Source: a virus. Taken from it: DNA of 45,917 nucleotides. Shown in pieces: positions 7,197 to 39,897 of this stretch. Position 1 is the first letter of the stretch. Each line of letters opens with the position of its first letter. The position numbers and the translations under genes are program-made. Location of the stretch: positions 1 through 45,917 of the IMG/VR virus record IMGVR_UViG_3300042518_000309; one strand, 5' to 3'. The notes below the pieces were generated by a model. The model worked only from the letters and a program-made list of their open reading frames with translations, ran no database searches and was not told where the DNA came from.

Positions 7197-10100
7197 ATGG
7201 CTCAGTACGTACCCCTCCCAAACGGCAGTTACGTCACAGTGCGGGAGGGCGAAACCCCGCAGCAGGCATTTGCGCGTGCGCGTAGGGAATACCCTGAAGC
7301 CTTTGTTCGACGTGAGCCTGAGCGCGAGCCTGAGTCTGGTTTTGGCGCGGCCTTCAAGGCGTCTGCTCAATCGATAAGGGGTGAGGCCGCGTTGCTTGGC
7401 GGCAAGCTCGGCTTCATAAACGAGAAGGACGCCCAGCGGTATCAGGCCGAGCAGGAAGATATTGCTCGGGGCATTTTCCGTCCCACCGAAAAAGGTTGGA
7501 CTGAGGCACCGCTCACCAAGTTTGGCGAACTCCTTGGCGGGTCGCTGCCGTACATGTTGGCACCTGTTGCCGCCGGTGCTGCGGCTATTCCGCTTGGTGC
7601 GGCTGCACCTATCGTCGGCACTGCCGGTGCTGGTTTGGCATCTCTGGCGCAGTTCACTGGCACCAACCTTGCTCGCCAACTGGAAGCCCAAAAGGAGCGT
7701 GGTGAGGAGGTGTCGCTTGAGCGGGCTAGCGGTGCTGCTGCCGCAGCCGCTGCCGTCCCCCAGGCTGCGCTTGATATTGTCAGTTTGAAGGCGCTGCCGC
7801 TGGTGCGCAACCTGTTTAGGTCGGTTGGTAAAGACATCACCGAGGCCGAAGCCAAGCGCATTGCCGAGCAAGGTTTCAAGCAGACTTTTGCTGACTACGC
7901 TAAGACTGGCGCGCGCACCGCCGGTATTGAAGGCTTGACCGAAGCTGGTCAGCAGTACTTTGAGCGCCTGCAAGCAGGTCTTTCGATTTCAGACCCAGGC
8001 GCTCGTGAGGAGTACATCGACAGCTTTATTGGTGGTGCCGTGCTTGGCGCTGGCTTGTCGCCTGTGGGCCGCTTCGTTGAGCGTGGTGGTGAGCAGGGGC
8101 TTGCGCGTAGAAAGCTAGACGAAGTTGCCCAAGATCAGCGCAGAGCTGCGCTTGAAGAAAAGGCCAAGCTCGAAGCCGAAGAAGCCGAGAAGCGCAAGCA
8201 GCCGGAGTACCTGACGAAACTGCAAGCGGACTACCAAGCCGCCAAGGAAAAAGACAACGCCTACAAGGCCGAGATCAAGGCGCTTGACGCGCAGAAGGAT
8301 GACCCTGCCTCATTGGCCAGGGCCAAGGAGCTTCGCAAAGAATACAAGGACTTCCAAAGGACTGAGCTTTCGCAGATCGTCAAGGACTACAACCGGGCGG
8401 GTGGCGAGAAGTTCTTCAAGCAGTTTGCCGAGCAGCAGCGTGTAGCAGGGATGACGCCTGAAGACTATATGCTTGAGCAGTTTGATGCTGAAGCCAAGGC
8501 GGCAAACGAAGCGGAATACACCAGACTCAAGGCGCGTCTCAAGCAGCTTGATCGCACCTCGGATGAAGCCAAGCGCATCAAGGCGCGTATGGTGCAGTTG
8601 AAGCCTGCCGCTAAAGCAGCAGCGCCGGAAGCTGCGGATATTGAAGCGGAAATCCTGGGGCTGGAGCCTGCAGCCCCAGAAGACGCAGAGCGTGCGGAAC
8701 TGGAAGCCTACGCTAAAGAGCGCCTGGAGCTTGCTCAGCAGAACATTAACGCTGGCATGGGTACTGGCCGAGACATTCCCAAATACCTGATTCAAGACCC
8801 TGCCGCCGCAGCTAAGCTGATTGAAACCAAGGCACAACTGCCTGGGATGAGTCGCCCGCAAAGCAACCTCATCCTTGAGCGCATGCAAGAGCTTTTGCGT
8901 GCACAAGCCAGACTGCAGGGCAGATTGGCTTTCCCCGGCGAAACCGAGCTACTCAAAGCGCAACGCACAGAACCGCAACAACTGTTCTTGGAGCAGTGGC
9001 AGCAGGATCAAGAGGCGCTTGATGCAGAGCGCAGAGAGAGTACGTTTGACACTAACCTGACCAACCTCGTCAACACCGCGCTTAAAGGCACGCCTACTGT
9101 GGAAGTGCCCGAAGGGGCGACGGTGGATCGACGTGGTACTGTATTTCTGCAGCGTTTGGACGAAGCCATTGCGCAACGAGATGCTGCCGCCAAGGCAGCA
9201 GAGCAGGCGTTTGCCGCAGGCAACCGTGAAGTCGGAGCCGCCAAGAGCAAAGAGCGTGAAAACGCACAGCAGGTGCTCAACCAGATTGAGCAGCAGGGCG
9301 GCAACGCATCGCTGATTTCTAAGCTCCGCAAGGAGCAGGACAGCGCCCTGATGGATGCAGCGGGTCTGATTGATGACCTGCGCAGCGGCCTTACCCTGGG
9401 CGACAAAGAACAGCAAGGTGCAGCTTCTTCTACCGCCGAGACGCTTCGCGTCCAGGTTGACAAGGCCCGCGCTCGATTCATCGACGCTGCCATCAAGGAA
9501 GCTGCAGCTACGCAGCGGATGTTTGGCAAGGCGCTGTCTCAGGACGACGCACTCAAGGCTGCACTTCAGATGCAGCAGGTTTTTGATGAGTGGGTCACGC
9601 GCTCTGCGGCCAAGCCCCGTAGCGCCGAAGACCTCATCAAGACCTATGAGCGCATGCCGTCGCTCACTGACCAGCAGTGGCTGAACGCCGCTCTGGAAGA
9701 CTACAAGAAGCAGACCGTACAGGCGGCGCTGGCCAAGAAGTTGACTGAGCGTGAGGCGGCTTCGGGCAAGTCCTTGCGCGACATGACGGAGTCAGAGCGG
9801 CTTGCTCTGACGGAAAAGACCGGCGCAGTTGAACTGACCGGTGAAGAGCGCCGCAAGGCTGAAATCCAGGCAGCGGATGAGTTCCGCCGCGCTTACGAAA
9901 AGTATCAGCCCCGCCGCCCTGCCTACGAACGTCGCCGCAACAAGGACGGCACGTACTCGATGGTGTTGGTGGATAAGGGCAAGGCGCGTCTTGTCGATAC
10001 TCGACCCCTGGAAGAGCGCCAGTTTGGCGCTCAAAAAGCCGCTACTGCAGTACTGCAAGAGCAACTCCGGCAGATTTCTAGCCGACTGAGTGCTGTGCCT

Positions 10101-13100
10101 GAAGAAGGTCGTCGTGCTGAGTCGCTGCTGCGCCCACAGTACGCGATTACGGAAGCGCAAAAAACGGCTGAAGCGCGTGGTGAGACTGCCGAAACATTGG
10201 GTGGTGAACTGCGTCGGCGTCGTGAGTATGTAGGCAACCTAATTACCCGCGCTCTGCAAACGCGGCCTGATTTGGCCCCTGAGATTGTGGAGGGTCTGCA
10301 GCGTGCGCAGGCAGCTATTGAAGCCGGTCGTGGTGGGCGCGATGTGCTGACCGCAGTCGGGCCTGAAGGTAAAGCTGGCCCTGCACCGTTTACCGCAGGT
10401 TTGCTCGATGCTGCCGAGACGCTGGCCACGCGGGTGCTGCAAGGACGTACCACCGCCGTCACGGGCGGTGTAGAGGGCGCACGGGCGCAAAAGGGCTACG
10501 ACGCACTGGCGTTCCGCAGGGACGAGATCAATCGCCAGTATCAAGCGCAGCAGCGTTTGGTGGCATCCGGTGTAGATGAGAACGGCAAAGAGTTGACGCC
10601 TGCCAAGAAGCGCAAGGCTCAAACCCTTCTGGCTACATACGAGACGCAACTGGAGAACTTGAACAAGCGTCTTGCCGGACCTCGGCCCACGGTTGCGCCT
10701 GTAGGAGTTGAGCAGCGTGCTGCTACCGGCGAAGATGCCAAGCTCTTGCGCGAGATAGATGACGCATTGGGGCTGTCGGAAGCAGAAGAAGGCGCACCGG
10801 CTAGGCGGCTTACCGAGGACGAGCGTGCGCAACTGGCGCAGCAAGGGTTTGACTTTGGTGAGGAGCAAGCGCCCGTCATTACCAAGCCAATGCCTGCCTC
10901 AGAGCGGCGTGAGCTTGAGGCCCAAGGCCAACGCTTTGATGAAGAAGAGCGTGAGCCTGCCAAAGCTCCGACCAAGCAGGCTGATCTGTTTGAAGAAAAA
11001 GAACTTCCGGCCACGGCATTTGCCCGTGCGACTGCCCGCAACTTTGAAAACTCACCGCCTGTCAAGAAGGCCCGTGCTGCGGTGGAGCGCGGCAAAAAGC
11101 TGCTTGCCGATGTAAAAGAGGCTTGGGACGCTAAGGATGCCCAGGACAAGGCTAAGCGCAACCAAAAGATTGGTGAGACTCAGGAAGCGATTGAAAAGCA
11201 GCGCGAGGTTTACCGCGAAACATTCCAGGCTGCGCTGAAGAAAGCGCAGATGGCGGAGATTACGGAACGCTTCCAGAAGGAAATCACGGCGGTACTGCAA
11301 AGCCTGCAGGCGGTGAGCAAGGAGCGTGCTGCGGCTGTGGCGGCAGGCGACATGGATGCAGTACGGCTGATTGATGTCATCCGCACAGAAGAGACAAACG
11401 CTCTGCTAAAGCTGCAAGCCGATCTGGCCACCGCGCTTGAGAAGCCAAGCCAAAACATTGAGCCTGCTGAAACCACCGGCATGCGTGGGTTCGTGCTGTC
11501 GTCTGAACTCCAGGCTGCAGCCGATGAGTGGGTCACGTTTGAGCGTGATCGCTTGACGAAGCTAGAAGACAAGCTCAAGCGCCTGCAAGGCGCGGAGCGG
11601 AAGGATGCCGCTAAGGAGCTTGTGGCTCAGCGTAAGGCTGTGCAAGAAGCCACCATCAGCACTGGCCGCGCAATGTCGGGGCTGGGCTTGCCGGGTATTC
11701 GCAGGCAAGCGGGCCGTGTCACGCCTATCAGTAGCGCAGAAGAGCTTGCACGGGAGCAGGCGGCTGAAGCGCGTGAGCGTGCAGACGAAGTCCAGAAATT
11801 GGCAGACGCCCGCAAGGCGGCTGCGGAAGAGCGCGAAACAGAACTGGAAGATCGCATCCTTGAGATTGGCAACGAAGTTGCCGAGAAGGAAGCAGCGATT
11901 GGCCGCGCCCGCACAGACGCCACCAAGGAACGTCTGAACAGTGAGATTGCTGAGCTTAAGCGCGAAGCCGCCATGCTCGAAGAGCAACTGGGCACGCCTG
12001 AGTTGAGCCGCACTGAAAAACGCAAGGCTCGCAAAGCTCAGAAGACTACGTTCAAGGGTAAAGGCGTTGGGTCTGAGAAAGAACTGCTAGGTCCGCTGAC
12101 GGAAAAACTCCGCGACCTTGAGATCGACGTTAAAAAGCGTCTGCGTAGCGAGGGCCTTTTCAAGTCTGATGAGCAGGTCACAGTTCTGGCTATGCAGCAA
12201 CTCACGCCCTATGAGCGTAGGGTGCTAGAGAGCCGCTTTAAGAAGCAAGAAACTTCGACGCAACGCACCAAGCGTCTGCAAGGCGCGTTCGAGGCAATGG
12301 CTGCTGAGAAGAAAGGCGCTGAACGTATTGCGGATATGTACGAGGGTGTTGAGGATGTGCTCGACTCCGTGCGTATCGGTAACGAAGATATTCGTTTCTC
12401 TAAGGCCAAAGGCAAACCCAACAACCCGCAGACTGCTGCGACGCTGGGTGAAGAGTTGGAGAAGGCGCTTGGCATCAAGGGCTTGCGTGCGGATAAGGTC
12501 AAGATTTACAACAACCTTGCCGAACTGATCGCCGCTCACCCTGAGTTCAAGGACAAGATTCCCGACGATGCGGTTGGCTTTGTGTACGGGCCTAAACGCG
12601 GCGAGCCTACGGCTTACTTGATCGCCAACAACATCGGCAAGGGCGACGGTCTGGCCATCCTGCTGCACGAGGTCGGTGCGCACATTGGCTTCCGCAACCT
12701 GTTCAGTGAGTCCCAGTATCGGGGTCTGGCGAACGCCGTCAAGTCTTGGACTACGCGCCCGGAGTACACGATTGAAGGCCGGATTGGCCGCGCTGCGATT
12801 GCGCGCGCTAAAGCAGCCAAGACATCTGCTGCGCAGATGGATGATGAGATCATTGCCTACGCTGTCGAAGAAGCCGTCAAGGCAGGCATTCGCCCTGATG
12901 CAGAGGCCAAGGAAGGTGGCGTTGTTCGCGCTTGGCTGAAGGCCATTGCGGATAAGTTTATGCAGGCACTGCGTGTGTTTGGCGTAAACCCTGGAAACCT
13001 CAAGGTAGGCGATCTGGTCAATATGGCCTACGGCGCAGCGCATCTGGAACTGCGCGGCACATGGCACGGCACTGGCAAGGTCTTCAAGGAATTCGACCAC

Positions 13101-16100
13101 TCCTTCATGGGCACCGGTGAAGGCGCTCAGGTGTTTGGGTTTGGTACGTATCGCGCTCAGCGGTACAGCACTGCGCAGCATTACCAACAGCAAGAAGCTG
13201 AGAAGCAGCTAGATGACTGGCGGAACAGCCCAAAGATCAAAGCGTGGTGGGAGTCTCAGCGGCACAAAGTCAACGGACTGACAGCCAGCGACCTGTTCCA
13301 TCTTATGGAGTACAAGCCGTACATCGACGATGGGGCCACCGAACTTGATTCTTTTGATGCTGCGGGGACGCTCTTTGAGTACGGCTACGACGCTGCAGGC
13401 TTCAAAAAAGCCAAGGATGCGATTGATAAGGCGGGGTTGAGCGCACTTACTGGGGAAGAGATAAGTGATCTTGCCGCGTATATGGACTTGGCAGATGCAG
13501 ACGTGCTTGCAAAACTTAGCCTATACAACACTCCGACAGCGCGCATAAAAGGCGCTATTTCAAAACCTGCGCTTAGAGATAAAGTAGCAGACTTTATTTT
13601 CGATGGCGTTACAACCAAGCTCACTTATGACGGCAAGACCGACACCGAGCTATATGGTTCTAAAGACCCCTATGAAAAAGCGGTGGGGCGCGTCCTGCTT
13701 GATATTTACGGAGCTAAACCGGGAGCAGACCTCCGCGCACTTTTTGTTGAAAGGTTGAAGAAGAGTAAAGAAGAAGCCAAAACAGAAATTGCTGACGCCA
13801 AAAAGTACGGCGCTATGGGCGGCAATAAAAAGAATAGGGATTTTTGGAAAAAACAGATTGAAGAATACACAGCCGAACTTGAAGCACTTAACCAGATTGA
13901 TGTTAATAGGCTTGGCGGAGCCAATGTTACAGAGCCGCCCGTCCCTCGCCCCAAAGGGGTAATGAAGCGCGTCTTGGGCGTGCGCCCTGAGAGCGAGTAC
14001 TACATGCTCGACCTTCCGTTGAAGGATCAGAATGAGTATGTCAAGAATGCGGTGGCAAATGCGCTGGGCGATGTGCCGACACCAAAGAGAACAGCGCGCA
14101 TTGACGCGGATGACGCAAGGTTGCTGACAGAGGCTGCAAAAGCTGGGCTCCCTAAGCGCCCAAACTATTTGTTTACCACCAAACTTCAGGCGGTGTTTGA
14201 TTCTGGCAAGACAAAGCAAGATTTTATTTCGGAGCTTGAAAGCGTCTTTAGGAATAACGGGCTGACTCCAAAAGACGCATCCATGTGGCTCTTTAAGCAT
14301 GGGATTGCAGGACACAAGTATCTTGACCGGGCGGCGCGTAGTGGCAAGGTCACCGACACGGATGCTCGGTTCAACTACGTGGACTTTGGCGACAAGGCAG
14401 AAGGTCCGACTATCGTTGCCGCAAACATAGACCGTGTTGGGCAGGCAGACGAAATCCTTTTCTCTCGTGCGCCCAAGTACAACGCGGCTATGGAAGGCGC
14501 GGGTCTGACTGCCGACAAGATGATCTCGCAGTCGCCCAGCACCTACGCCAAGTTCAAGCAGAGCATGCTGGGCCTGGGGTTCCGCACCCGCTTCCTTGAT
14601 GCGCTTGCCCCCCTGGAGAAGGTGTCTGGGATGGTGGGTGACGCTGTCAAGGGTATGCAGATGATGTACTACCTGCGGATGTACGGCATGCGGATGAACT
14701 TCACGTCGCTGTCGCTGTCCGAGGGCGTGCCGCAGTTGATGGAGAAGAAGCGCCGGGATGGTGGCACCGAGTGGATCATCGAGTCGGTGCCTGGTGTGAG
14801 CATCAAGCAGATTGTTGAGCGCCTGAGCCGAAAGGATGTCGTCAAGGCAGCAGGCAGCGCCGATGCTGCCAACCGCCTGTCTACCCTGTATCTGGCCAAG
14901 CTGCGTGCCGACAACAAGGGCTACGACAAGCTGAACTTTGGACGTGCGGCGGCTGAAGCGGAACTGAAAGAGATTGAGCAGGAGTTGGCCAGCGGCAAAC
15001 TGTCGGCAGACGACAAGATTCGCGTCAAGCAGCGCGAAGCGCACCTGCGGAAGACCATTGATTCGCTGCCCACCGAGGCCGACATCAAGAGCGCGTTTGC
15101 TGAGATTGAGGCCAACCCCACACTCAAGGAAGCGTTTGCTGACGTCCGCGAAATGTACAACGAGTACAACCAGAACCTGCTGCGGTTCATGGTGCAGACA
15201 AGCGCGATGAGCAAGGAAGAAGCCGACCGCTTGCTCAAGGAGAAGGACTACATCCCGTACTACCGCGTGCGCAACGGCGTTGCCGAACTGATGATTGGTG
15301 GCCTGACGCCTGTTCGCATCGGCAACCTCAAGGACAGCCCGCACCTGCAAGAACTGGTGGGTGGCGAAGAGCCGATCTTCAACTTCCTCGACAGCAGCGT
15401 GCAGAACACGTCGATGCTGATTGACATGGCCATGCGCAACATCGCCGTGAAGAACGCGATGTGGGAGATGGCGTCTGTTGGACTGGCCAAGATCAGGAAG
15501 GCAGGCAAGAGAGGCGCTCCCCAGGGGGCGGTCGAGTTCAAGATTGATGGTGAGGACTGGTTTGCCATCGTCGATACCGACCACATCGGCATCCCGTCTG
15601 AACTGCTGACCAAGGGTCTGGCCGGTATCCCGACTATGTTCCCCCAAGCGATTGAACTCATGGGCATCCCCGCCCGGTTCCTGCGCCGTGCGATCACCGC
15701 ATCGCCCGTCTACGCAGGTCGGCAGTTGTTCCGTGACTCGCTGTCCTCCTACATGGCCAGCGGCTCCAACGCACCCCCAGTGCTCGGCGCTCTGCAGCAA
15801 ATTGGCAGAGCCAGTAGCGTAGACAGGCGTGGCATCACGGGTGGGCAGGTCTTCACGGGAACCTCTGAGGACAAGGCGCGTCTGTTGCGTGAGATGCAAG
15901 AAGGTCGTCCGGGCTGGGCCAAGGCGTTCTCCAAACTGGAAGCGATGTCGATGGAGGCCGATGCCGCCACCCGCCGCGCCCAGTACGAGAGCTACATCAA
16001 CCAGGGGCTGTCCGAAATGGAAGCCACCTTCATGGCGCTGGAGTCGATGAACTTTGCACGGCGCGGTATCGACCCGAGCGTGCAGTTGCTGACCACGCTG

Positions 16101-17141
16101 ATTCCGTTCATGAATGCGCAAATTCAGTCGCTCGACGTGTTGTATCGCTCACTGCGTGGCCAGATGCCGATGAACGAGCGGCTGCAGATCAAGGAGAAGC
16201 TGATCGCTCGTGGCACGATGCTTGCCGGTATGTCCATGATGTACGCGATGGCCATGCAGGACGACGAGACGTACAAGAACGCTCGGCCCGATGAGAAGTA
16301 CAACAACTGGTTTGTACCGATTCCTGGCTTCGATGAGAAGTTGCGCGTACCCATCCCGTTTGAACTGGGTTACATCTTCAAGGCGCTGCCCGAGGCGCTC
16401 ATCAACGGCATCTACGCTGAGCGTGGTGCTGATGAGGCGGTTGATGCGCTCAAGGGCATCATCCGCAACATGATTCCTGGTGGCGGCAACTACGGCGTCC
16501 CCGCTGCGTTCAAGCCGTTGATCGAGGTGGGCCTGGGCAAGTCCTTCTTCACAGGGCGCGATCTGGAGTCTGCTGCTGAGCAGATGCAGGAGCCTTGGGC
16601 ACGCTATCGGGAGAACACTTCCGAGACTGCCAAACTCCTGGGACGGCTGTTCAACATCTCCCCGATCAAGATCGAGACGCTGGTCAGCGGCTACACCGGT
16701 AGCCTGGGCATGGCGCTCATGCAGGTTCCCAACGTGGTGCTGCCTACGCCGGAGACAGATCTGCCCGAGAAGCGCATGTCTCAGATGCCGCTGGTGGGTA
16801 CGCTGTTCCAGCCCAAGGACGCAGCAGGCATCATCGACGACACGTTCGAGCGGCTCAAGGACTACACCGCCGCCAAGGAAACCTACGAAGGGCTTGTGGA
16901 GAAGGGCGAACTGGCCAGGGCCGACGCTTACTTGCGCGACAACCTGGAGAAGATTCAATTGGCGTCGCTGTCTGGCACCTTCCGGCAACAGATCGGCGAG
17001 ATCACGAAGGCGGAGCGTCAGGTTCGCGGTAGTACTCTGACATCTCAGGAGAAGCGTGATCTTCTGGATGATCTGCGTCAGGCGAAGATACTGGTCGCTT
17101 CTTCTGTGCGGGACACGCTCGGAAGAATAGAAGCCCGATAA
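7197..17141 (+). CDS. giant polyvalent virion protein (zincin-like, ART, LPD38-like)
   Basis: A 3,314-residue protein filling almost 10 kb. Residues 4-36 form a small YVPLPNGSYVTVREGETP domain. Residues about 115-155 are hydrophobic and Ala/Gly-rich. About 300-1700 is mostly charged coiled coil. At 1824-1829 the sequence HEVGAH lies in a peptidase-like context but is HExxxH rather than the usual HExxH. From W1956 (WHGTGKVFKEFD, then GTGEGAQVFGFGTY) to about 2400 (KYLDRAARSG, FNYVDF) it matches the ADP-ribosyltransferase domain found in polyvalent proteins. About 2420-3260 resembles the large polyvalent-protein domain LPD38 (NFARRG, IPFMNAQIQSLD, IPFELGYIF). Such proteins are thought to enter the host with the DNA, so a role as internal/ejected protein with effector domains is inferred. 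No strong ribosome binding site is visible before the ATG. Confidence 0.75.
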   Translation: MAQYVPLPNGSYVTVREGETPQQAFARARREYPEAFVRREPEREPESGFGAAFKASAQSIRGEAALLGGKLGFINEKDAQRYQAEQEDIARGIFRPTEKGWTEAPLTKFGELLGGSLPYMLAPVAAGAAAIPLGAAAPIVGTAGAGLASLAQFTGTNLARQLEAQKERGEEVSLERASGAAAAAAAVPQAALDIVSLKALPLVRNLFRSVGKDITEAEAKRIAEQGFKQTFADYAKTGARTAGIEGLTEAGQQYFERLQAGLSISDPGAREEYIDSFIGGAVLGAGLSPVGRFVERGGEQGLARRKLDEVAQDQRRAALEEKAKLEAEEAEKRKQPEYLTKLQADYQAAKEKDNAYKAEIKALDAQKDDPASLARAKELRKEYKDFQRTELSQIVKDYNRAGGEKFFKQFAEQQRVAGMTPEDYMLEQFDAEAKAANEAEYTRLKARLKQLDRTSDEAKRIKARMVQLKPAAKAAAPEAADIEAEILGLEPAAPEDAERAELEAYAKERLELAQQNINAGMGTGRDIPKYLIQDPAAAAKLIETKAQLPGMSRPQSNLILERMQELLRAQARLQGRLAFPGETELLKAQRTEPQQLFLEQWQQDQEALDAERRESTFDTNLTNLVNTALKGTPTVEVPEGATVDRRGTVFLQRLDEAIAQRDAAAKAAEQAFAAGNREVGAAKSKERENAQQVLNQIEQQGGNASLISKLRKEQDSALMDAAGLIDDLRSGLTLGDKEQQGAASSTAETLRVQVDKARARFIDAAIKEAAATQRMFGKALSQDDALKAALQMQQVFDEWVTRSAAKPRSAEDLIKTYERMPSLTDQQWLNAALEDYKKQTVQAALAKKLTEREAASGKSLRDMTESERLALTEKTGAVELTGEERRKAEIQAADEFRRAYEKYQPRRPAYERRRNKDGTYSMVLVDKGKARLVDTRPLEERQFGAQKAATAVLQEQLRQISSRLSAVPEEGRRAESLLRPQYAITEAQKTAEARGETAETLGGELRRRREYVGNLITRALQTRPDLAPEIVEGLQRAQAAIEAGRGGRDVLTAVGPEGKAGPAPFTAGLLDAAETLATRVLQGRTTAVTGGVEGARAQKGYDALAFRRDEINRQYQAQQRLVASGVDENGKELTPAKKRKAQTLLATYETQLENLNKRLAGPRPTVAPVGVEQRAATGEDAKLLREIDDALGLSEAEEGAPARRLTEDERAQLAQQGFDFGEEQAPVITKPMPASERRELEAQGQRFDEEEREPAKAPTKQADLFEEKELPATAFARATARNFENSPPVKKARAAVERGKKLLADVKEAWDAKDAQDKAKRNQKIGETQEAIEKQREVYRETFQAALKKAQMAEITERFQKEITAVLQSLQAVSKERAAAVAAGDMDAVRLIDVIRTEETNALLKLQADLATALEKPSQNIEPAETTGMRGFVLSSELQAAADEWVTFERDRLTKLEDKLKRLQGAERKDAAKELVAQRKAVQEATISTGRAMSGLGLPGIRRQAGRVTPISSAEELAREQAAEARERADEVQKLADARKAAAEERETELEDRILEIGNEVAEKEAAIGRARTDATKERLNSEIAELKREAAMLEEQLGTPELSRTEKRKARKAQKTTFKGKGVGSEKELLGPLTEKLRDLEIDVKKRLRSEGLFKSDEQVTVLAMQQLTPYERRVLESRFKKQETSTQRTKRLQGAFEAMAAEKKGAERIADMYEGVEDVLDSVRIGNEDIRFSKAKGKPNNPQTAATLGEELEKALGIKGLRADKVKIYNNLAELIAAHPEFKDKIPDDAVGFVYGPKRGEPTAYLIANNIGKGDGLAILLHEVGAHIGFRNLFSESQYRGLANAVKSWTTRPEYTIEGRIGRAAIARAKAAKTSAAQMDDEIIAYAVEEAVKAGIRPDAEAKEGGVVRAWLKAIADKFMQALRVFGVNPGNLKVGDLVNMAYGAAHLELRGTWHGTGKVFKEFDHSFMGTGEGAQVFGFGTYRAQRYSTAQHYQQQEAEKQLDDWRNSPKIKAWWESQRHKVNGLTASDLFHLMEYKPYIDDGATELDSFDAAGTLFEYGYDAAGFKKAKDAIDKAGLSALTGEEISDLAAYMDLADADVLAKLSLYNTPTARIKGAISKPALRDKVADFIFDGVTTKLTYDGKTDTELYGSKDPYEKAVGRVLLDIYGAKPGADLRALFVERLKKSKEEAKTEIADAKKYGAMGGNKKNRDFWKKQIEEYTAELEALNQIDVNRLGGANVTEPPVPRPKGVMKRVLGVRPESEYYMLDLPLKDQNEYVKNAVANALGDVPTPKRTARIDADDARLLTEAAKAGLPKRPNYLFTTKLQAVFDSGKTKQDFISELESVFRNNGLTPKDASMWLFKHGIAGHKYLDRAARSGKVTDTDARFNYVDFGDKAEGPTIVAANIDRVGQADEILFSRAPKYNAAMEGAGLTADKMISQSPSTYAKFKQSMLGLGFRTRFLDALAPLEKVSGMVGDAVKGMQMMYYLRMYGMRMNFTSLSLSEGVPQLMEKKRRDGGTEWIIESVPGVSIKQIVERLSRKDVVKAAGSADAANRLSTLYLAKLRADNKGYDKLNFGRAAAEAELKEIEQELASGKLSADDKIRVKQREAHLRKTIDSLPTEADIKSAFAEIEANPTLKEAFADVREMYNEYNQNLLRFMVQTSAMSKEEADRLLKEKDYIPYYRVRNGVAELMIGGLTPVRIGNLKDSPHLQELVGGEEPIFNFLDSSVQNTSMLIDMAMRNIAVKNAMWEMASVGLAKIRKAGKRGAPQGAVEFKIDGEDWFAIVDTDHIGIPSELLTKGLAGIPTMFPQAIELMGIPARFLRRAITASPVYAGRQLFRDSLSSYMASGSNAPPVLGALQQIGRASSVDRRGITGGQVFTGTSEDKARLLREMQEGRPGWAKAFSKLEAMSMEADAATRRAQYESYINQGLSEMEATFMALESMNFARRGIDPSVQLLTTLIPFMNAQIQSLDVLYRSLRGQMPMNERLQIKEKLIARGTMLAGMSMMYAMAMQDDETYKNARPDEKYNNWFVPIPGFDEKLRVPIPFELGYIFKALPEALINGIYAERGADEAVDALKGIIRNMIPGGGNYGVPAAFKPLIEVGLGKSFFTGRDLESAAEQMQEPWARYRENTSETAKLLGRLFNISPIKIETLVSGYTGSLGMALMQVPNVVLPTPETDLPEKRMSQMPLVGTLFQPKDAAGIIDDTFERLKDYTAAKETYEGLVEKGELARADAYLRDNLEKIQLASLSGTFRQQIGEITKAERQVRGSTLTSQEKRDLLDDLRQAKILVASSVRDTLGRIEAR

Positions 17142-17295
17142 ACCCCTGGTGGATGCACGGCAGCGCCCGTGCATCCTTCAGCTTCAAAGGCACAGCCGCA
17201 CGCAACCCTGCTTCACGCATGGCTTCGAGATCAAGGGCAGGGATGAAGAACCCCTGCCCTCGCTCAATCTTCTCCCACGGGAAGTATTTCGGCAC
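17002..17295 (-). CDS. small protein, possible last gene of the minus operon
   Basis: A 97-residue reading frame whose first 59 residues look protein-like (FPWEKIERGQGFFIPALDL, AGLRAAVPLK, GFIGLLFFR), a pattern I associate with small unnamed phage and plasmid proteins. Its ATG overlaps the end of the primase-helicase gene by 32 bases, as expected for a coupled gene. Residues from about 52 onward run antisense through the last 140 bases of the giant plus-strand gene, and this tail looks less convincing. It may be real with a poorly conserved tail. Function unknown. Confidence 0.4.
   Translation of the reverse strand: MPKYFPWEKIERGQGFFIPALDLEAMREAGLRAAVPLKLKDARALPCIHQGFIGLLFFRACPAQKKRPVSSPDADHPEDHASPEMSEYYREPDAPPS
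17151..17176. terminator. 10-bp perfect stem-loop between convergent operons
   Basis: GGATGCACGG pairs perfectly with CCGTGCATCC around a six-base loop, ten bases after the stop of the giant gene, where plus and minus operons meet. It lacks a long T-tract on either side, so it may be a weak bidirectional terminator. It also lies inside the coding frame of the small minus-strand gene at 17,002-17,295, so coding constraint is an alternative explanation. Confidence 0.5.
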
Positions 17296-20161
17296 TGTTG
17301 TCTAGTTCTTCTCTGCGACTGATGCACAGCGCGTGCACCCGCATCTGTGGGCCTTTGGTCCTGGCCATCATGTCCTTGCGCAGCACCTTGACGCTGTAGC
17401 CTTCGATGGTGGCTATCTGCCGCCTGAAGTCTTCATAGCCGTAGGACATGGATACGCAGTGTGAGCGCATCACCGATTCCTCGATGAAGTAGTCCACGAA
17501 CCCAGGCTTGTCGATGCCATGCTCCACGCGTCCCATGACGGTACTGCGCGTGATTGACTGATCAACCGGCTCTCCGTTACCCAGTGACGCCATGAACGAC
17601 CCGTTGCTGCGCTTGACCACCACGAAGTGACCGTAGTGGTCACGGGTGAAGGCGTTGAGAACATCCTCGGCGTTGCGCGAACCGGTGCGCACCACCTTGC
17701 GGGCCTTCTCCACCAACTTGAAGAAGCTGTTGATGATCTCGTCTACGGGGTAGTCGAAGATGCCTGCGTAGTTGGAACCGGCCAGGATTGCTCCGGCGAC
17801 ATCACACGCACAGCCATTGCCCCAGTACCGCTCTTCACCAGTTAGCGCCCACTCACGCTTAAGGCGTTCGTGCGTCTTGGCCAACACCTTGCGGGCGGTG
17901 TCTTGGTTCTGCACAAGCCACCGGACGTACTTCTCGCCCGCCACCCCGTGATTGGTGTTGAGCAGGCGCAGGATGTCTTCCTCTTCCGGCGTCCAGTTGA
18001 GCTTCTCCTCGGGCGTCCACTCCAACATGCGGAACAACTCACCTTGGGAGGTGTGCTTGCGCACGCCCGACATGAAGTCGTGCATGTGCGTGTTCGATGT
18101 CAGGTAGGCTTGCGTCGCCCAGGAGACGAGGTTCAGGCGCTCTCGGTTGTGGTGGGCTTCGGACTTCTCCTTGCCCTGGCCCTCAGCCAGATCGAAGATC
18201 AGGCCAGGGAACCACTCCATCTCCTGCCGGGACTTGTGTGTGATCTCGTCCGAGGTGAAGGGCAGCGAGTTCAGGTTACCGATGCGCTGCTGCATCGTGA
18301 CTGCTGAGGTGGACTTGCCTGTGCGGTACCGGGTCGGATGCCCCCAGACCGAGTTGATCAGGTTCATCGCCATCGTCTTACCAGTACCAGAACTGGTCGA
18401 GCCTGCATGGATGGTCAAGCAAGCGAACTGCGTGAAGCGCATCAGCGGTGCGCCAAACGCCATAGTAGAGACGGCCAGGAGGTCGTACAGCCCACGCTGC
18501 ACCATCAGTTCTGGGAACCTGCGCCACTCCTCCAGTGTGCCCGCTGCCCGCGTGTTGCGTGTCAGGTTCTGCAGGTCTGGCATCGGCACGGTGCGCGTGC
18601 GGCCATCGGGAAAGAAGATGCGCCCGGAGTAGACGAAGGAGTTGTCCTCCTGCCACCCGTACTGCTGAGGAATCTTGATTGCGCGTTTGTTGACGCTGGC
18701 CTCCTCCACGCAGGCCCGGATGTACTCCACCAGATTCTTGTCGTTGCCTGCGCCGAACGCAGCCATGATGTTCTGCTGCGCCAGGGACTTGAGCAGTTCG
18801 TCCTTGCTGACCACCGCCCGTTGAGCGAACAGCACGTCGGCAGGAGCGTTGGGGCGATTGGCCACCATGTGGACGGTGTGCTCGTTGTCCTTGTTCAGGA
18901 TGTCCACCACGAACATGTCGTACGGCAGGATCATGACCTGCTTCTTGCGCTTGGTTCCGTCTGCTTCCTCCACGATCCGGTCGGCATACACACCGCCATT
19001 GGCGCCGTATGCGTAGCCCTTGGGAGGCGTCGGGCGCACCACCTTGATGGTGGGTGCCTCGGGATCGTCCGGGTCGCTCGGCTTGATCTCGACCTCTTTC
19101 TCGGAGTTGTCGGCCACCAGTTCCCGGCCCAGGGCCAGGGGGTTGGTGATCTTGCCGAAGTGCTTGCACTTCTGGCACACGCCTGGGTTCTCGCTATCGA
19201 ACTTGACGCAGGGATAGGGGCCTTTTATCTCGCGCAGCTTTGCCTGCATGCGCTCGTCGTCGTACGGGTGGAGTTGGCTCAGCCAGATCGAAGCCTTCTC
19301 GCCATCGGCGCAGTACTTGGCTTGACTCAGCCAGCCCCGCCACAGCGGCTCCATGCCGTCATCCTTGGCGTGGTTGACGTAGTGATCAAGCTGCAAGCAA
19401 CCGTCGCCATCGCCCGTCTTAGCCAGTATGTGCTTGAACCGCACGATGGTGTTGGCCAGCATCTGCACGCCCGTCTTGGTGGCGTTGACTGGGCGCTGCC
19501 CAGGCAGGTTCATGCCTTGGGCGTATGGGGTTGGCGCTGTGTCTCCGAGCAGGTCGCGCAGCTTGGCGAAGAACTCCTGTGGGTTTACAGGAGCGTCGCC
19601 CTCAGCCAGCACCTCCACCGGGCGCGGCTCGCCGTACTTCTTCTTGAAGTTCTTGGTGCCAGGAACACGCAACACCCGTGCGGCGTCTGCCGTGACGGTG
19701 TTGTCGATGGCCAGTGACCGCTCCTTGCACAGACGCTTGAACGTCTCAGCAATCGGCTTCCACTCACCTACGGTCAGGGGCTTGTCGAACGCCCAGTAGC
19801 AGTGCAGACCGCCGCCTGAAGCGATGATCCAGGGCTTGCCAAAGGCGTCGAGCCCGGTGTCTGCCAAGAACTTATCCAGTGCCTCCTGTGCTGCTTCCTT
19901 GCTGTCGTACCCATCCATGTCGATGAACAAGGACTTGATGTACTCAGCGTTGTCTGCGGTGCGACTGCCCTTATCGGCAAACGTCGCAAGCGCAAAGTAG
20001 ATGTCCTGCTGACCCTCCAACCACTGAGATACGTACGGACGCATCTCAGCGATGTCTTCGATGAAGACGTGCTGTTTTCTCTTGGAGGAGAGTTCTGCCG
20101 CGCAGTAATACCCGTGACCGGGAGACGGCAGGACAGCCGCTAAGAACTCTAGCGGTTCCAT
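17264..20161 (-). CDS. primase-polymerase / helicase
   Basis: A 965-residue replication protein with AGGAG before its ATG. The N-terminal part resembles an archaeo-eukaryotic primase: a Dx(D) metal site in FIDMDGYD (about 78-85) and SGGGLHCYW (about 115-123). A Cys cluster at about 318-333 (CVKFD...CQKC) probably binds zinc. The C-terminal half is a DUF927/superfamily-3-like helicase ATPase with Walker A GSTSSGTGKT (about 587-596) and SDEIT as a Walker B candidate. It would synthesise primers and unwind DNA for the family-A polymerase encoded in the same operon. Priming and helicase domains fused in one chain are common in phages and plasmids. Confidence 0.8.
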   Translation of the reverse strand: MEPLEFLAAVLPSPGHGYYCAAELSSKRKQHVFIEDIAEMRPYVSQWLEGQQDIYFALATFADKGSRTADNAEYIKSLFIDMDGYDSKEAAQEALDKFLADTGLDAFGKPWIIASGGGLHCYWAFDKPLTVGEWKPIAETFKRLCKERSLAIDNTVTADAARVLRVPGTKNFKKKYGEPRPVEVLAEGDAPVNPQEFFAKLRDLLGDTAPTPYAQGMNLPGQRPVNATKTGVQMLANTIVRFKHILAKTGDGDGCLQLDHYVNHAKDDGMEPLWRGWLSQAKYCADGEKASIWLSQLHPYDDERMQAKLREIKGPYPCVKFDSENPGVCQKCKHFGKITNPLALGRELVADNSEKEVEIKPSDPDDPEAPTIKVVRPTPPKGYAYGANGGVYADRIVEEADGTKRKKQVMILPYDMFVVDILNKDNEHTVHMVANRPNAPADVLFAQRAVVSKDELLKSLAQQNIMAAFGAGNDKNLVEYIRACVEEASVNKRAIKIPQQYGWQEDNSFVYSGRIFFPDGRTRTVPMPDLQNLTRNTRAAGTLEEWRRFPELMVQRGLYDLLAVSTMAFGAPLMRFTQFACLTIHAGSTSSGTGKTMAMNLINSVWGHPTRYRTGKSTSAVTMQQRIGNLNSLPFTSDEITHKSRQEMEWFPGLIFDLAEGQGKEKSEAHHNRERLNLVSWATQAYLTSNTHMHDFMSGVRKHTSQGELFRMLEWTPEEKLNWTPEEEDILRLLNTNHGVAGEKYVRWLVQNQDTARKVLAKTHERLKREWALTGEERYWGNGCACDVAGAILAGSNYAGIFDYPVDEIINSFFKLVEKARKVVRTGSRNAEDVLNAFTRDHYGHFVVVKRSNGSFMASLGNGEPVDQSITRSTVMGRVEHGIDKPGFVDYFIEESVMRSHCVSMSYGYEDFRRQIATIEGYSVKVLRKDMMARTKGPQMRVHALCISRREELDNSAEILPVGED

Positions 20162-24833: not shown

Positions 24834-26810
24834 TTAACCCTTGGCTAGTCCGTAGCGCCTGTTGTAGCCCACATCAGTCTTGAGTGGGATGCCGGGGAGG
24901 TACGGCACAGGCGCGACCATCTGCGCGAAGACCCAAGTCTTCGCGTCCTCCGCCTCTTCTTCAGGCACCACGGCAATCAGTTCGTCATGCACCGTGCCTA
25001 CCAAAGGGTACTTCTTCGCAACCCTTAGCATTCCATCGGTCATCACGCACCGCGCCGTGCCCTGGACAATGTTGTTGGTGACCTTGCCGCCGTACAAACT
25101 GACGCGCTTGTTGCCGTCAGCGTAGGTCCAAACGACCTTGCCACCATCGCCCTTGTCCGGGCGGAGATCAGGATACCGCATCGCCATACCGCTTGGCAAG
25201 ATGATTTGCTCCTTGCGGAAGGTGATGCACTTGTGCGTGTACTCCTTGCCCTTGTACAGGCTGTACTCGATGAGTTCCTGGCACAGGTTCCAGAACGCCA
25301 CCACGGGCTGCGAAGCGGCCCGGTACCTGTCGATGATGGCCTTGGCTGCGAGACAGTGGATGGCCAGTTCCTTGTTCGTGCAGGTGTGCGGGATGCTCTC
25401 CATGCGCTTGATGTTGTCCTCCCAGGACAGGAAGCGGTCTACATCAGCGGCTGTCACGCCCAGGGTCTTGGCGTCCTTTATGGTGTAGCGCAGGGGTGCT
25501 GCGCCCAGGAACCCGGTGAGAAGCTGCGCAGCGAACGACGCCCACCCCAACTGGTAGCCTGCGCCAAGCAGCGCAGACTTGGCGGACTGCCTCTCTACTG
25601 GGTGGCTGTCCTTGTTCATGCCAGGGATGTTGAACATCTGTGCGCCGAAGGCGGCATACGGGTCACCACCGGCACGGAACACGTCTAGTAGAGCCTCGTT
25701 ATCCGAAAGAACCGCGAGGACACGGGGCTCGATCTGCGAAAGGTCACCAGCAACCAGTACGTGCCCCTGCGGGGCCATGATGGAGTTTCGGAGGAAGCTG
25801 CCACGTTTTAAGTTCTGCATGTTGATGGCGCTGCCCTTACTGGCCGTCCAGCGCCCGGTGCCTGCACCGAAGTAGCTCAGCGGGACCGGTAACCGGCCAC
25901 GATGTGCGATGTCCAGAAAACGCTGCGCTCGCGTACGCTCGCTTGTTGACTTAACTTTGAGGCGTGCTTCACAGAGGAGTGCAACATCTTCCCTGTCCCC
26001 GTTGATAAGCGACTGGAAGAGGGCATCGTTCTTAGCAAGCGCATAAGTTTCTTTACCTGTCGTCTTGCTAGTCTTCTTTGGCGGCTCCACGCCAAGCTCT
26101 CGGAGTGCTTCAGCAAACTGTTCGTTTGAAGCAAGCGAAGCCTCATCCACGCCGAGCCTATGTAGTAGTCCTTCACGGGCGTTCCTTTCGTCTTCGATGG
26201 CCTTAGCCAGCATCTCCTTATCGAGTTCCAGCAGCGGCCTTGTGTACATCTTGAGCGTCATGTCGATGAGGCGCAACTCCTTGGCAGGGTAGCCAGGAAG
26301 CAGCCGGTCGAAGATGCCCTCGCACAGCACCACATCGTGGGCGCAGTACTGTGCCAACTCGTCTTCTACTTCCTCGCTGATCTCGTCCAGCATCCCGTCT
26401 GTGCTGTGCACCGCCTGACCCTTGGGCGGTAGCCCGAAGTCTTCAGCGAGTTTGGCCAGACTGTTGCCGACCTCGATGCCGCGCAGCGCACGAGCCATAG
26501 ACAACGTATCAAAAATAAAACAGGGCTGAACCCCGTAGCGCCAGGAGAGGATGGTCACATCGAACTGGGCGTTGTGTGCCAGCACCGCCGTCGTTGACCA
26601 GTCGATCTGTTCAGCCCACTCTGCGATGGCTTCGCCGCGAACCCACATGGGGTAGGCGTCCTCGCCTACCTCTTTCCAGCACAACCCCCAAGCCTTGAAG
26701 CGGGGGTCGCGTACATATTCTTCCGTGGTCATCTTGGAGAGGGTGTATTCCCGTCTGTCCCACGCCGTTTCAAAGTCAATAACCAGCACCCTCTTGAAAG
26801 GTAGGTTCAA
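24834..26810 (-). CDS. DNA polymerase, family A
   Basis: A 658-residue polymerase of T7/Pol I type. The start is TTG at 26,810, overlapping the previous stop (TTGA) and preceded by GAGGAG; no ATG is better placed. The 3'-5' exonuclease sites are DFET (12-15), HNAQFD (79-84) and YCAHD. Polymerase motif A is VAGDLSQIEPR (about 353), motif B is KSALLGAGYQLGW (about 412) and motif C is VHDEL (about 608). All key carboxylates are present. It is slightly shorter than T7 gp5. It would replicate the genome with the primase-helicase. Confidence 0.92.
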   Translation of the reverse strand: MNLPFKRVLVIDFETAWDRREYTLSKMTTEEYVRDPRFKAWGLCWKEVGEDAYPMWVRGEAIAEWAEQIDWSTTAVLAHNAQFDVTILSWRYGVQPCFIFDTLSMARALRGIEVGNSLAKLAEDFGLPPKGQAVHSTDGMLDEISEEVEDELAQYCAHDVVLCEGIFDRLLPGYPAKELRLIDMTLKMYTRPLLELDKEMLAKAIEDERNAREGLLHRLGVDEASLASNEQFAEALRELGVEPPKKTSKTTGKETYALAKNDALFQSLINGDREDVALLCEARLKVKSTSERTRAQRFLDIAHRGRLPVPLSYFGAGTGRWTASKGSAINMQNLKRGSFLRNSIMAPQGHVLVAGDLSQIEPRVLAVLSDNEALLDVFRAGGDPYAAFGAQMFNIPGMNKDSHPVERQSAKSALLGAGYQLGWASFAAQLLTGFLGAAPLRYTIKDAKTLGVTAADVDRFLSWEDNIKRMESIPHTCTNKELAIHCLAAKAIIDRYRAASQPVVAFWNLCQELIEYSLYKGKEYTHKCITFRKEQIILPSGMAMRYPDLRPDKGDGGKVVWTYADGNKRVSLYGGKVTNNIVQGTARCVMTDGMLRVAKKYPLVGTVHDELIAVVPEEEAEDAKTWVFAQMVAPVPYLPGIPLKTDVGYNRRYGLAKG

Positions 26811-37076: not shown

Positions 37077-37733
37077 TTACTGCTGCCAGAAAAGAAACCA
37101 CGGGTCGCGGGCAGCACTTCGCTTGCCGTGGATGGGTGTGCACTGGGTGTACAGGTATTTGAGACGGGTTAATTCCTCCGGTGTTATGTAGGTCAGGGGA
37201 TTGGCGTCCTCCATCGTGGGTTTTATTGGCGTGCCCTTGAGTTTTGATTTGGGCGCGGCGGTATCTCTTATGTGTTTTAGAAGGCTTGCGTAGTATTTGT
37301 AGAAGGCTACATACGGTTGGTATTCGGCCTTGTTTTTATCCACCATCGACCTGTGACGCAGGTAGGTGTTGCTTGCCCATGCGAACTCGTCACGCACAGC
37401 GTTGAGCAGGGCAGCGTTCCAGTTCTCGCGCCGGGTTCTTGAGTGGGCTGCGTAGGCTCGGTCAGGCAAGACGCTGTTCTTGAAGTGCTCGCGTTCTCGC
37501 CTGTCGATGGCGTCGAGGTAGGCAGGCGACACCTTGGTGTGTGAGGTTGAGCGGGCGTTGATGCGTTCGCGTTTGGTCATCTCCTTGTAGGGTTTGGGTG
37601 GGATGCACGCATTGCAGGAGTCTTCGAGGCGCAGCTTGAGCCTTGACCAGCGCCGGAACAGGCGCAGGGGTAGGTCGCGTGAGCACAGCGTGCAGCGGCG
37701 TGTGGCAAGGGGTTTGGTGGTGTTGGATGGCAT
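37077..37733 (-). CDS. Cys4 zinc-finger phage protein
   Basis: A 218-residue protein. Cys14, 17, 40 and 43 form a CxxC-N22-CxxC zinc site (CTLCSRDLPLRLF ... DSCNAC) of the kind found in HNH-type and unnamed phage proteins. The rest is helical and basic (YKEMTKRERINARSTSH; RTRRENWNAALLNAVRDEFA). No His-Asn catalytic pair is obvious. Directly upstream lies the hexamer array at 37,761-38,054, so it could act at or be controlled by that region. Confidence 0.6.
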   Translation of the reverse strand: MPSNTTKPLATRRCTLCSRDLPLRLFRRWSRLKLRLEDSCNACIPPKPYKEMTKRERINARSTSHTKVSPAYLDAIDRREREHFKNSVLPDRAYAAHSRTRRENWNAALLNAVRDEFAWASNTYLRHRSMVDKNKAEYQPYVAFYKYYASLLKHIRDTAAPKSKLKGTPIKPTMEDANPLTYITPEELTRLKYLYTQCTPIHGKRSAARDPWFLFWQQ

Positions 37734-37760
37734 GGTAGTGTCAGCTTGGTGTAAGGGTTC

Positions 37761-38054
37761 GGGTAGCTACCCACCTACTCACAAGGTACGGGCGAGACAT
37801 TGGGTAGTGTAAGTCATTGATGCGGCTCACGAAGTTGGGCAGCTACCCAACTACCCAGAATTTGGGGCAAGCACAGATGGCAAAGTTTTTTAAGAAAGAA
37901 AAAGCTGGCGTGCTTGGGTGAACAACAACAAATCTTTTTGGTGTACCTCTATATATATGGGTAGTTGGGTAGTAGTAGTAGTAGTTCATACAAATCAACA
38001 GCTTACGCTACCCAATGTTGCGCCCGTAGGTAGTGAGGAGGTGGGTAGCTACCC
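37761..38054. other. GGGTAG/CTACCC iteron-like array, candidate origin or operator cluster
   Basis: Ten exact GGGTAG or CTACCC hexamers lie in 294 bases (37761, 37767, 37802, 37843, 37851, 37959, 37967, 38008, 38043, 38049). Two copies of the perfect palindrome GGGTAGCTACCC mark the two ends, and GGGCAGCTACCC lies at 37,837. A 15-bp perfect inverted repeat, CTACCCAACTACCCA (37,843) and its complement (37,958-37,972), flanks 100 bp with AT-rich tracts, and (TAG)5 follows. The 381-base gap (37,734-38,114) holds no convincing gene. Confidence 0.8.
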
Positions 38055-38089
38055 AAAACCGAGGGTAAACCCTGACAAAAGTTGGACAC

Positions 38090-38107
38090 GGGGAAGAAAC
38101 CTTCCCC
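38090..38107. repeat. GGGGAAG-N4-CTTCCCC hairpin, copy 4
   Basis: Perfect 7-bp arms around AAAC, seven bases beyond the stop of the 65-residue gene and at the edge of the hexamer array. Only a weak T-rich stretch follows on the minus strand. Confidence 0.85.
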
Positions 38108-38312: not shown

Positions 38313-38395
38313 GGGAAACCTCCAAAGTAAAAGAGTTCGCGTGGCGAACGGAAATAACCGCAACCCCCTCGCGCAGAGGGAGTGCGGCAGGAATC

Positions 38396-38412
38396 GGGGA
38401 AGAAATCTTCCC
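38396..38412. repeat. GGGGAAG-N4-CTTCCC hairpin, copy 5
   Basis: Six-pair stem around AAAT, four bases beyond the stop of the 136-residue gene. A second short stem (CCCTC-N5-GAGGG) follows toward the next gene in the same 104-base gap. Confidence 0.75.
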
Positions 38413-38860: not shown

Positions 38861-38882
38861 ACGGGGAAGAAACCTTCCCCGT
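38861..38882. repeat. hairpin family copy 6, 9-bp arms, in the leader of the minus operon
   Basis: ACGGGGAAG-AAAC-CTTCCCCGT forms nine perfect pairs, followed on the minus strand by TTTTCATTTG. It lies between the leftward promoter and the first gene, so it could act as a leader attenuator or a processing site. Confidence 0.85.
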
Positions 38883-39095: not shown

Positions 39096-39124
39096 TTTTC
39101 AAATAAAATACCCCCCGGTATATT
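39096..39124 (+). promoter_or_regulatory. rightward late promoter candidate
   Basis: TTTTCA (4 of 6) and TATATT (5 of 6) are 17 bases apart in an AT-rich patch, upstream of the head-gene operon. The gap 38,883-39,234 holds no gene; beyond the listed sites I see only C-rich sequence. Confidence 0.4.
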
Positions 39125-39148
39125 ATAAAAATTTGACAAGCATGGGCG

Positions 39149-39234: not shown

Positions 39235-39897
39235 TTGCACGCCGCTCGGTACCCACTATACACTCCGCCCAATTACGGACGCAAGCCCCGCTTCGAAATG
39301 CTTGAACACCTGATTGACTACAAGCCACCACTGGCCACCCTTGACGAGGTGACGCCTTTGGATAAGGCGACTTCGGATGAAGTCTTAGCCGCCCAGGTAT
39401 CTACCGCAGACTGGCTCAAGGAAATGGGCGCCACCAACGCCGAAGAATCCCAGCAGTCCGCAGCCGCCTCCCAGGCACGGCAGGCTTTCCAGGCCATGAC
39501 CACCCAGTCGCCGGAGGAACAGCGCAAGGCGCTCATCCAGTTGAAGACTCCACCCGCTGTGCGGCACCTAACAGGGATGTTGGTGGCGTATGACTGGGCG
39601 TTTGTGGAGCAGGCCAAGGAGCTTCGCGGCTACGCCGTGAGCCAAATCCTTGAGGAAACCAAGCACCCCGACGCAAAAATCCGGCTGAAGGCGCTCGACA
39701 TGCTTGGGCGCGTGACGGAAGTGGCGCTATTCACGGAGCGGGTGGAGGTCAAGAAGACTGACCTGACGGATGCCGAGATCGAAGCCAAGATCAAGGACAA
39801 GATCAACCGCTTCATGCAGGTCACGGACGTAATCGACATCACGACCGCAGAAGAAACCGCCCCGGAAACCCCGGATGAACCTCCAGTCACTCAATAG
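39235..39897 (+). CDS. putative terminase small subunit
   Basis: A 220-residue protein immediately before and overlapping the large terminase by 23 bases, the usual small-terminase position. Helical throughout; N-terminal YPLYTPPNYGRKPRFEMLEH, a middle helix with LRGYAVSQILEETKHPDAKI and RLKALDMLGRVTEVALFTER, and an acidic tail. It lacks an obvious HTH, so assignment is by position. I use TTG 39,235 with GAGAG upstream; ATG 39,298 would remove the conserved-looking N-terminus. A good AGGAGAAAC leader at 39,200 has no start codon at the expected place. Confidence 0.55.
   Translation: MHAARYPLYTPPNYGRKPRFEMLEHLIDYKPPLATLDEVTPLDKATSDEVLAAQVSTADWLKEMGATNAEESQQSAAASQARQAFQAMTTQSPEEQRKALIQLKTPPAVRHLTGMLVAYDWAFVEQAKELRGYAVSQILEETKHPDAKIRLKALDMLGRVTEVALFTERVEVKKTDLTDAEIEAKIKDKINRFMQVTDVIDITTAEETAPETPDEPPVTQ

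Follow-up and report, generated by a model that had tools for sequence, protein, structure and literature searches.

Short repeated sites bound by protein adjoin an AT-rich region in the origins of iteron plasmids and in origins of the lambda type. In phage-inducible chromosomal islands (PICIs) and Staphylococcus aureus pathogenicity islands (SaPIs), two iteron sets flank an AT-rich core, as described for EcCICFT073 and SaPIbov1 (PMC6092414). The SaPI Rep protein binds the iterons, apparently as two hexamers, and Cch of the staphylococcal cassette chromosome (SCC), in which DUF927 is present, is related to Rep of SaPIbov1 (PMC7581432). Here we analyse an IMG/VR virus record of 45,917 bp (IMGVR_UViG_3300042518_000309; hereafter the window), in which a mirror-symmetric, two-armed array of GGGTAG sites lies beside a gene that we call X. 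Judged from its sequence and relatives, this array is probably the bidirectional replication origin of the phage, with a plan like that of the two-sided iteron origins in PICIs.

Results

The initial annotation had described a ten-copy hexamer cluster bounded by two identical palindromes, with a perfect 15-bp inverted repeat round a 100-bp spacer, between two same-strand genes. All ten exact copies of GGGTAG/CTACCC were recovered within 37761-38054, while the rest of the window holds 12 copies, at most one per 294 bp, a rate from which 0.08 would be expected in such a stretch. The palindrome GGGTAGCTACCC was located at 37761-37772 and 38043-38054, the 15-bp repeat at 37843-37857 / 37958-37972 with 100 nt in between, and both neighbouring genes are on the same strand. 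This description was correct but understated, as the mirror symmetry of the whole array had been missed: the ten sites are symmetric about 37907.5, with spacings of 6, 35, 41, 8, 108, 8, 41, 35 and 6. An outer 67-bp inverted repeat (37755-37821 / 37994-38060, 82% complementary) brings each arm to about 103 bp. In a sliding scan for paired inverted arms over the whole record the array reaches a two-arm score of 49 and the next-best place 15; the outer palindrome and the exact arm modules occur only in the array and nowhere else in the window. The element consists of the following parts:

37755-38060, no strand: whole two-armed element, proposed replication origin (mirror symmetry, two-arm score)
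37755-37857, no strand: left arm, with outer palindrome GGGTAGCTACCC at 37761-37772, middle site at 37802-37807 and inner pair CTACCCAACTACCCA at 37843-37857
37858-37957, no strand: AT-rich core, 100 bp, 38% GC, proposed melting region, with TATATATAT at 37950-37958 beside the right arm
37958-38060, no strand: right arm, mirror image, with inner pair TGGGTAGTTGGGTAG at 37958-37972, middle site at 38008-38013 and outer palindrome at 38043-38054
37810-37820, plus strand: left copy of module A, TAAGTCATTGA, constant within the clade and possibly bound by the shared primase-helicase
37995-38005, minus strand: module A, right copy, TAAGCTGTTGA on the minus strand, clade-constant

The GC content of the core is among the lowest 0.05% of the record's 60-bp windows, but it is not the minimum of the record, since the places at 39096 and 13824 are still lower.

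A search of related phages for the array at the same locus, suggested with the initial annotation, found it there. Nine contigs related through X carry it at the same place. L011, with an X 68% identical, keeps all ten hexamers; in L014, found by the DNA pattern alone, the middle hexamer has changed from GGGTAG to GGACGC in both arms. Site offsets of 38 and 44 bp match between arms and across the window, G001 and the complete arm of L014, where they are unchanged despite the altered middle hexamer. A search with TerL, the large terminase subunit, gave more than 600 relatives, of which 80 were kept, and 36 TerL-family loci were scored. The best two-armed structure lies 1.7-3.05 kb upstream of TerL in 29 of these 36, and a score of at least 20 is reached upstream of TerL in 24 loci compared with 2 elsewhere; the TerL relative DSL-LC04 has a modest array (score 29). 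With the helical type of X as anchor, the element is found just upstream of X, scoring above the rest of the locus, in 62 of 62 sequence-distinct loci (at least 20 in 59, in none elsewhere), and TerL stands 2.2-3.1 kb from X on the opposite strand in all 55 loci with enough flank; because the loci share ancestry, these counts show conservation and are not independent trials. The lowest-GC 60 bp of the locus fall inside the element in 22 of 29 and 50 of 62 loci. Where a phage uses a different repeat sequence, a two-armed element nevertheless stands about 2-3 kb upstream of TerL, and arms within one genome are more alike than across clades (L110 own 52, nearest other 24; L069 44 versus 22). What is conserved are the arms, their spacing and the AT-rich core, while the GGGTAG hexamer itself is replaced by other repeats in relatives. 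A universal hexamer GGRYA for all clades was rejected; it is found 182 times where 84 are expected overall, yet is absent or weak in several clades.

In dozens of phages this anatomy recurs at the same position, with scores far above the rest of each contig. This contradicts a chance arrangement or a recent mobile-element insertion, a reading that is hardly conceivable. A folded RNA or an extruded cruciform formed by pairing of the arms is highly improbable as well. The arms are complementary over about 100 bp, as a stem would be, but 409 of 1605 arm columns are mismatched, 242 of them by transversions that break pairing, the matched blocks are interrupted by equal-length unmatched spacers, and the outer sites are palindromes in themselves. 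We rejected such a stem on these transversions and on the lack of any Rfam match.

The relation between array and gene X can be followed in two phages, G008 and G009. Their primase-helicases are 99.5% identical (100% over the last 254 aa), TerL is 98.8% and the DNA flanking the array 88-90% identical, whereas X is only 30% identical and the iterons differ. DNA homology ends at the right edge of the array and returns 3' of X. The window and L039 give the same picture, with TerL 94% and X 26% identical and arrays that cannot be aligned. As homology breaks at these edges and X and iterons are both changed, X and the array form a cassette. Since the arrays differ beside a nearly identical primase-helicase, the iterons are probably the target of X, and X, not the C-terminus of the helicase, appears to set iteron specificity.

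This exchange also bears on the reading of the array as a packaging (pac/cos) or partition site, with the terminase small subunit or some other protein as its ligand. The location would suit it: the putative small-terminase gene (39235-39897, assigned by position) is about 1.2 kb and TerL 1.8 kb from the array. However, in G008 and G009 array and X are swapped while TerL and the terminase-side DNA (about 90%) are kept, a directional packaging signal is ill-suited to mirror symmetry, and no ParA or ParB was found among the proteins scanned. We therefore regard such a site as very unlikely.

The immediate borders of the array are the following:

37077-37733, minus strand: gene X, 218-aa Cys4 protein, proposed iteron-binding protein, starting just outside the left arm
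38090-38107, minus strand: hairpin GGGGAAG..CTTCCCC, terminator-like, between the upstream minus-strand gene and the array

The X protein of the window has four invariant cysteines. Versions with and without these cysteines are homologous (profile comparison probability 97.3%, E = 1.7e-11), and a weak resemblance to the zinc part of endonuclease VII is seen in some members. X matches no Pfam family. A structural model (predicted local distance difference test, pLDDT, 83) suggests a small N-terminal domain followed by long helices, and a fold search of this model against the PDB gave no match below E = 0.86. A tblastn search for X among the cultured phages of the collection found no carrier.

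The left arm ends 22 bp ahead of the start of X. The hairpin is repeated after successive minus-strand genes (38090-38107, 38395-38412 and 38861-38882, the last copy scored terminator-like), so that the promoter of X must lie in or near the array. The main rival reading is that the array is an operator or promoter array and no origin, with X binding the arms to control its own gene and an early operon reading left. The short distance to X, these hairpins and the inseparability of X and array across loci speak for this reading. Nevertheless, we think it unlikely. No dispersed sites were found elsewhere in the window, such as the same sites at other promoters of a regulon, and a sigma-70-like promoter looked for in the array was not found. 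A 300-bp two-armed structure round the locally most AT-rich spot exceeds the needs of autoregulation, its plan matches PICI origins, and one of its modules goes with the phage clade instead of with X. An origin that doubles as an operator through which X controls its own gene could also explain the data.

The module in question is module A. The pattern [CT]AAGnnnTTG[AT], one per arm and inverted, is present in 8 of 8 loci with TerL at least 86% identical and in 0 of 26 others, while CCGCATG-type modules are present in 21 of the 26 and in none of the eight, both patterns having been picked after the loci were seen. Module A tracks the phage clade, not X. With less confidence, we infer that it may be the target of the shared primase-helicase.

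The replication proteins considered here are encoded elsewhere in the window, together with an SNF2-type helicase and an exonuclease:

17264-20161, minus strand: 965-aa DUF927 primase-helicase, proposed to serve the element as replicative helicase and primase (profile and PDB matches)
24834-26810, minus strand: family A DNA polymerase of the same phage (context)

The primase-helicase matches DUF927 (PF06048, E = 1.7e-24) and, in the PDB, 8tch 'Pathogenicity island protein' (4.9e-7) and 5dgk 'Active helicase' (5.8e-5), and conserved FxDxD and SGGGxH motifs are present. By these matches it is a sequence relative of the SaPI and SCC helicases. Its AlphaFold model had a mean pLDDT of 50 and was not used.

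Two-armed arrays were also found in independent phages with VapE-type helicases, just 3' of the helicase gene or within about 0.5 kb of it. This set includes Marinobacter phage PS3, the Pseudomonas phages LPPA36, Haddon and U5 and the uncultivated L214, L196 and L165. Beside the helicase gene the two-arm score is 47 in PS3 and 40-50 in the L214 group; LPPA36, Haddon, U5, Dante and the satellite Javan56 score 18-20, close to background although in the expected position, and in the PICI-like Javan56 the top score lies just 3' of the helicase gene. No clear array 3' of the helicase was found by scan in the VapE-type phages Variovorax VarioGold, Acidovorax Aval, Burkholderia Mica, Bacteroides BF486P2 and BU3-1, and Evtepia. 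The arrays at L305:3722-3987 (PS3) and at about 4100-4250 in L306 and L312 (LPPA36 and U5) are apparently two-sided iteron arrays adjoining VapE-type helicase genes, and their records hold no origin annotation. L214:2794-2970, L196:1538-1717, L165:7283-7462 and five similar loci show the two-armed plan in an unrelated VapE-helicase phage/prophage group; in L214 and L196 the array is just 3' of the primase-helicase gene. Both arms of the L214 group contain a module, AACCCGCATGGATRCTGG, common to the distant relatives of the window. A primase in common with the L214 phages was rejected as the reader of the CCGCATG module, as the contigs of these phages encode VapE helicases and no window-type primase.

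As to the genomic surroundings, the ends of the close relative G002 (61,482 bp) overlap by 123 bp, which indicates a complete genome of about 61.4 kb, of which the window is a fragment. Outside the right arm, a flank element AGGGTAAACCCT..AAAGTTGG (38062-38086; about 4625-4690 in L011) is inverted in L011 relative to the clade of the window, and relatives each have their own repeated hairpin sequence in the region right of the array. Further right, the putative small-terminase, TerL and portal genes follow on the plus strand. The stretch 39096-39130, upstream of the putative small-terminase gene, is the most AT-rich spot of the record, contains promoter-like hexamers and is likely a late promoter. 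An open reading frame of 3314 aa (7197-17141) matches phrog_18222 (function unknown) in its C-terminal 650 residues only. L156 (CAIPID010000260.1), binned with an uncultured betaproteobacterium, has a TerL 51% identical to that of the window, a weak hint to the host.

Discussion

The candidate origin of the initial annotation gains support from the array in relatives, its PICI-like anatomy and a primase-helicase related to those of SaPI and SCC. A symmetric, AT-cored element at a single locus, combined with a putative specificity protein and a helicase of the self-loading type, fits an origin best. Several points weigh against this, besides the shared ancestry of the loci. Symmetry is weak in some relatives (L044, L046, L049, L064, L072 and L083), and scans of the distant cultured DUF927 phages Rollin and RHph_TM27A gave no comparable clear array. 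Family and fold searches recognised no DNA-binding family or fold in X, the primase-helicase gene is 17.6 kb from the array and not adjacent as in PICIs, and cumulative GC-skew, a check suggested earlier, was uninformative, with no consistent minimum at the array.

The symmetry, the conserved anatomy, the invariable coupling of X and array, the cassette exchange beside an unchanged primase-helicase and the helicase homology to SaPI and SCC suggest the following binding, melting and replication steps. Protein X from the adjacent gene would occupy the iterons specific to its clade (GGGTAG in the window) on both arms, building a symmetric nucleoprotein complex. The DUF927 primase-helicase would be recruited to both sides, perhaps via the clade-constant module TAAGnnnTTGAT, one per arm, and two helicase rings would then point at the AT-rich core. 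The core containing TATATATA would melt, the archaeo-eukaryotic primase (AEP)-type domain would prime, and the family A polymerase would extend both ways. This is most probably an origin of the PICI-like kind, with the recognition of its sites assigned to X, apart from the helicase. Whether it is a two-key origin, with a rapidly swapped cassette of X, as a new protein family, and matching iterons on a constant DUF927 primase-helicase system and a second, clade-constant arm module maybe read by the helicase, we put forward tentatively, at somewhat less than even chances. In that case origin specificity could be exchanged without a change of the replisome, which might help the phage evade satellites, superinfection or defence directed at the origin. 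That X and its iterons are exchanged together suggests a family of origin-recognition proteins not described before.

The locus shares with iteron plasmid and lambda-type origins the short repeated sites beside an AT-rich region, but those are typically one-sided tandem direct repeats, while here inverted arms stand on both sides. VapE-type phages differ in their helicase family (PF05272), in having no detectable homolog of X and in the array position at the helicase gene; in addition, the L214-type core is CGCGTATACGCG-like and not AT-rich as in the window. The PICI-like plan recurs in complete freshwater phages of an abundant group that is uncultivated and, as far as a small survey shows, also next to the VapE helicases of phages in culture, which makes it look like a general type of origin for phage helicases that load themselves. 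Unlike a PICI, which is a satellite without full capsid and packaging genes, the phage of the window is no satellite: it has its own terminase, portal and virion proteins, and its complete relative G002 measures about 61 kb. The PICI origin lies immediately 3' of the rep helicase, here the array is upstream of gene X; the PICI helicase C-terminus reads the iterons, whereas G008 and G009, in an indirect test, have different iterons with identical C-terminal 254 aa; and each arm here adds a clade-constant module. Despite these differences, the locus and PICI/SaPI origins have in common two-sided iterons round an AT-rich core, an iteron sequence that varies among relatives and a replicon that encodes a Rep-type (DUF927 or D5-like) helicase with primase.
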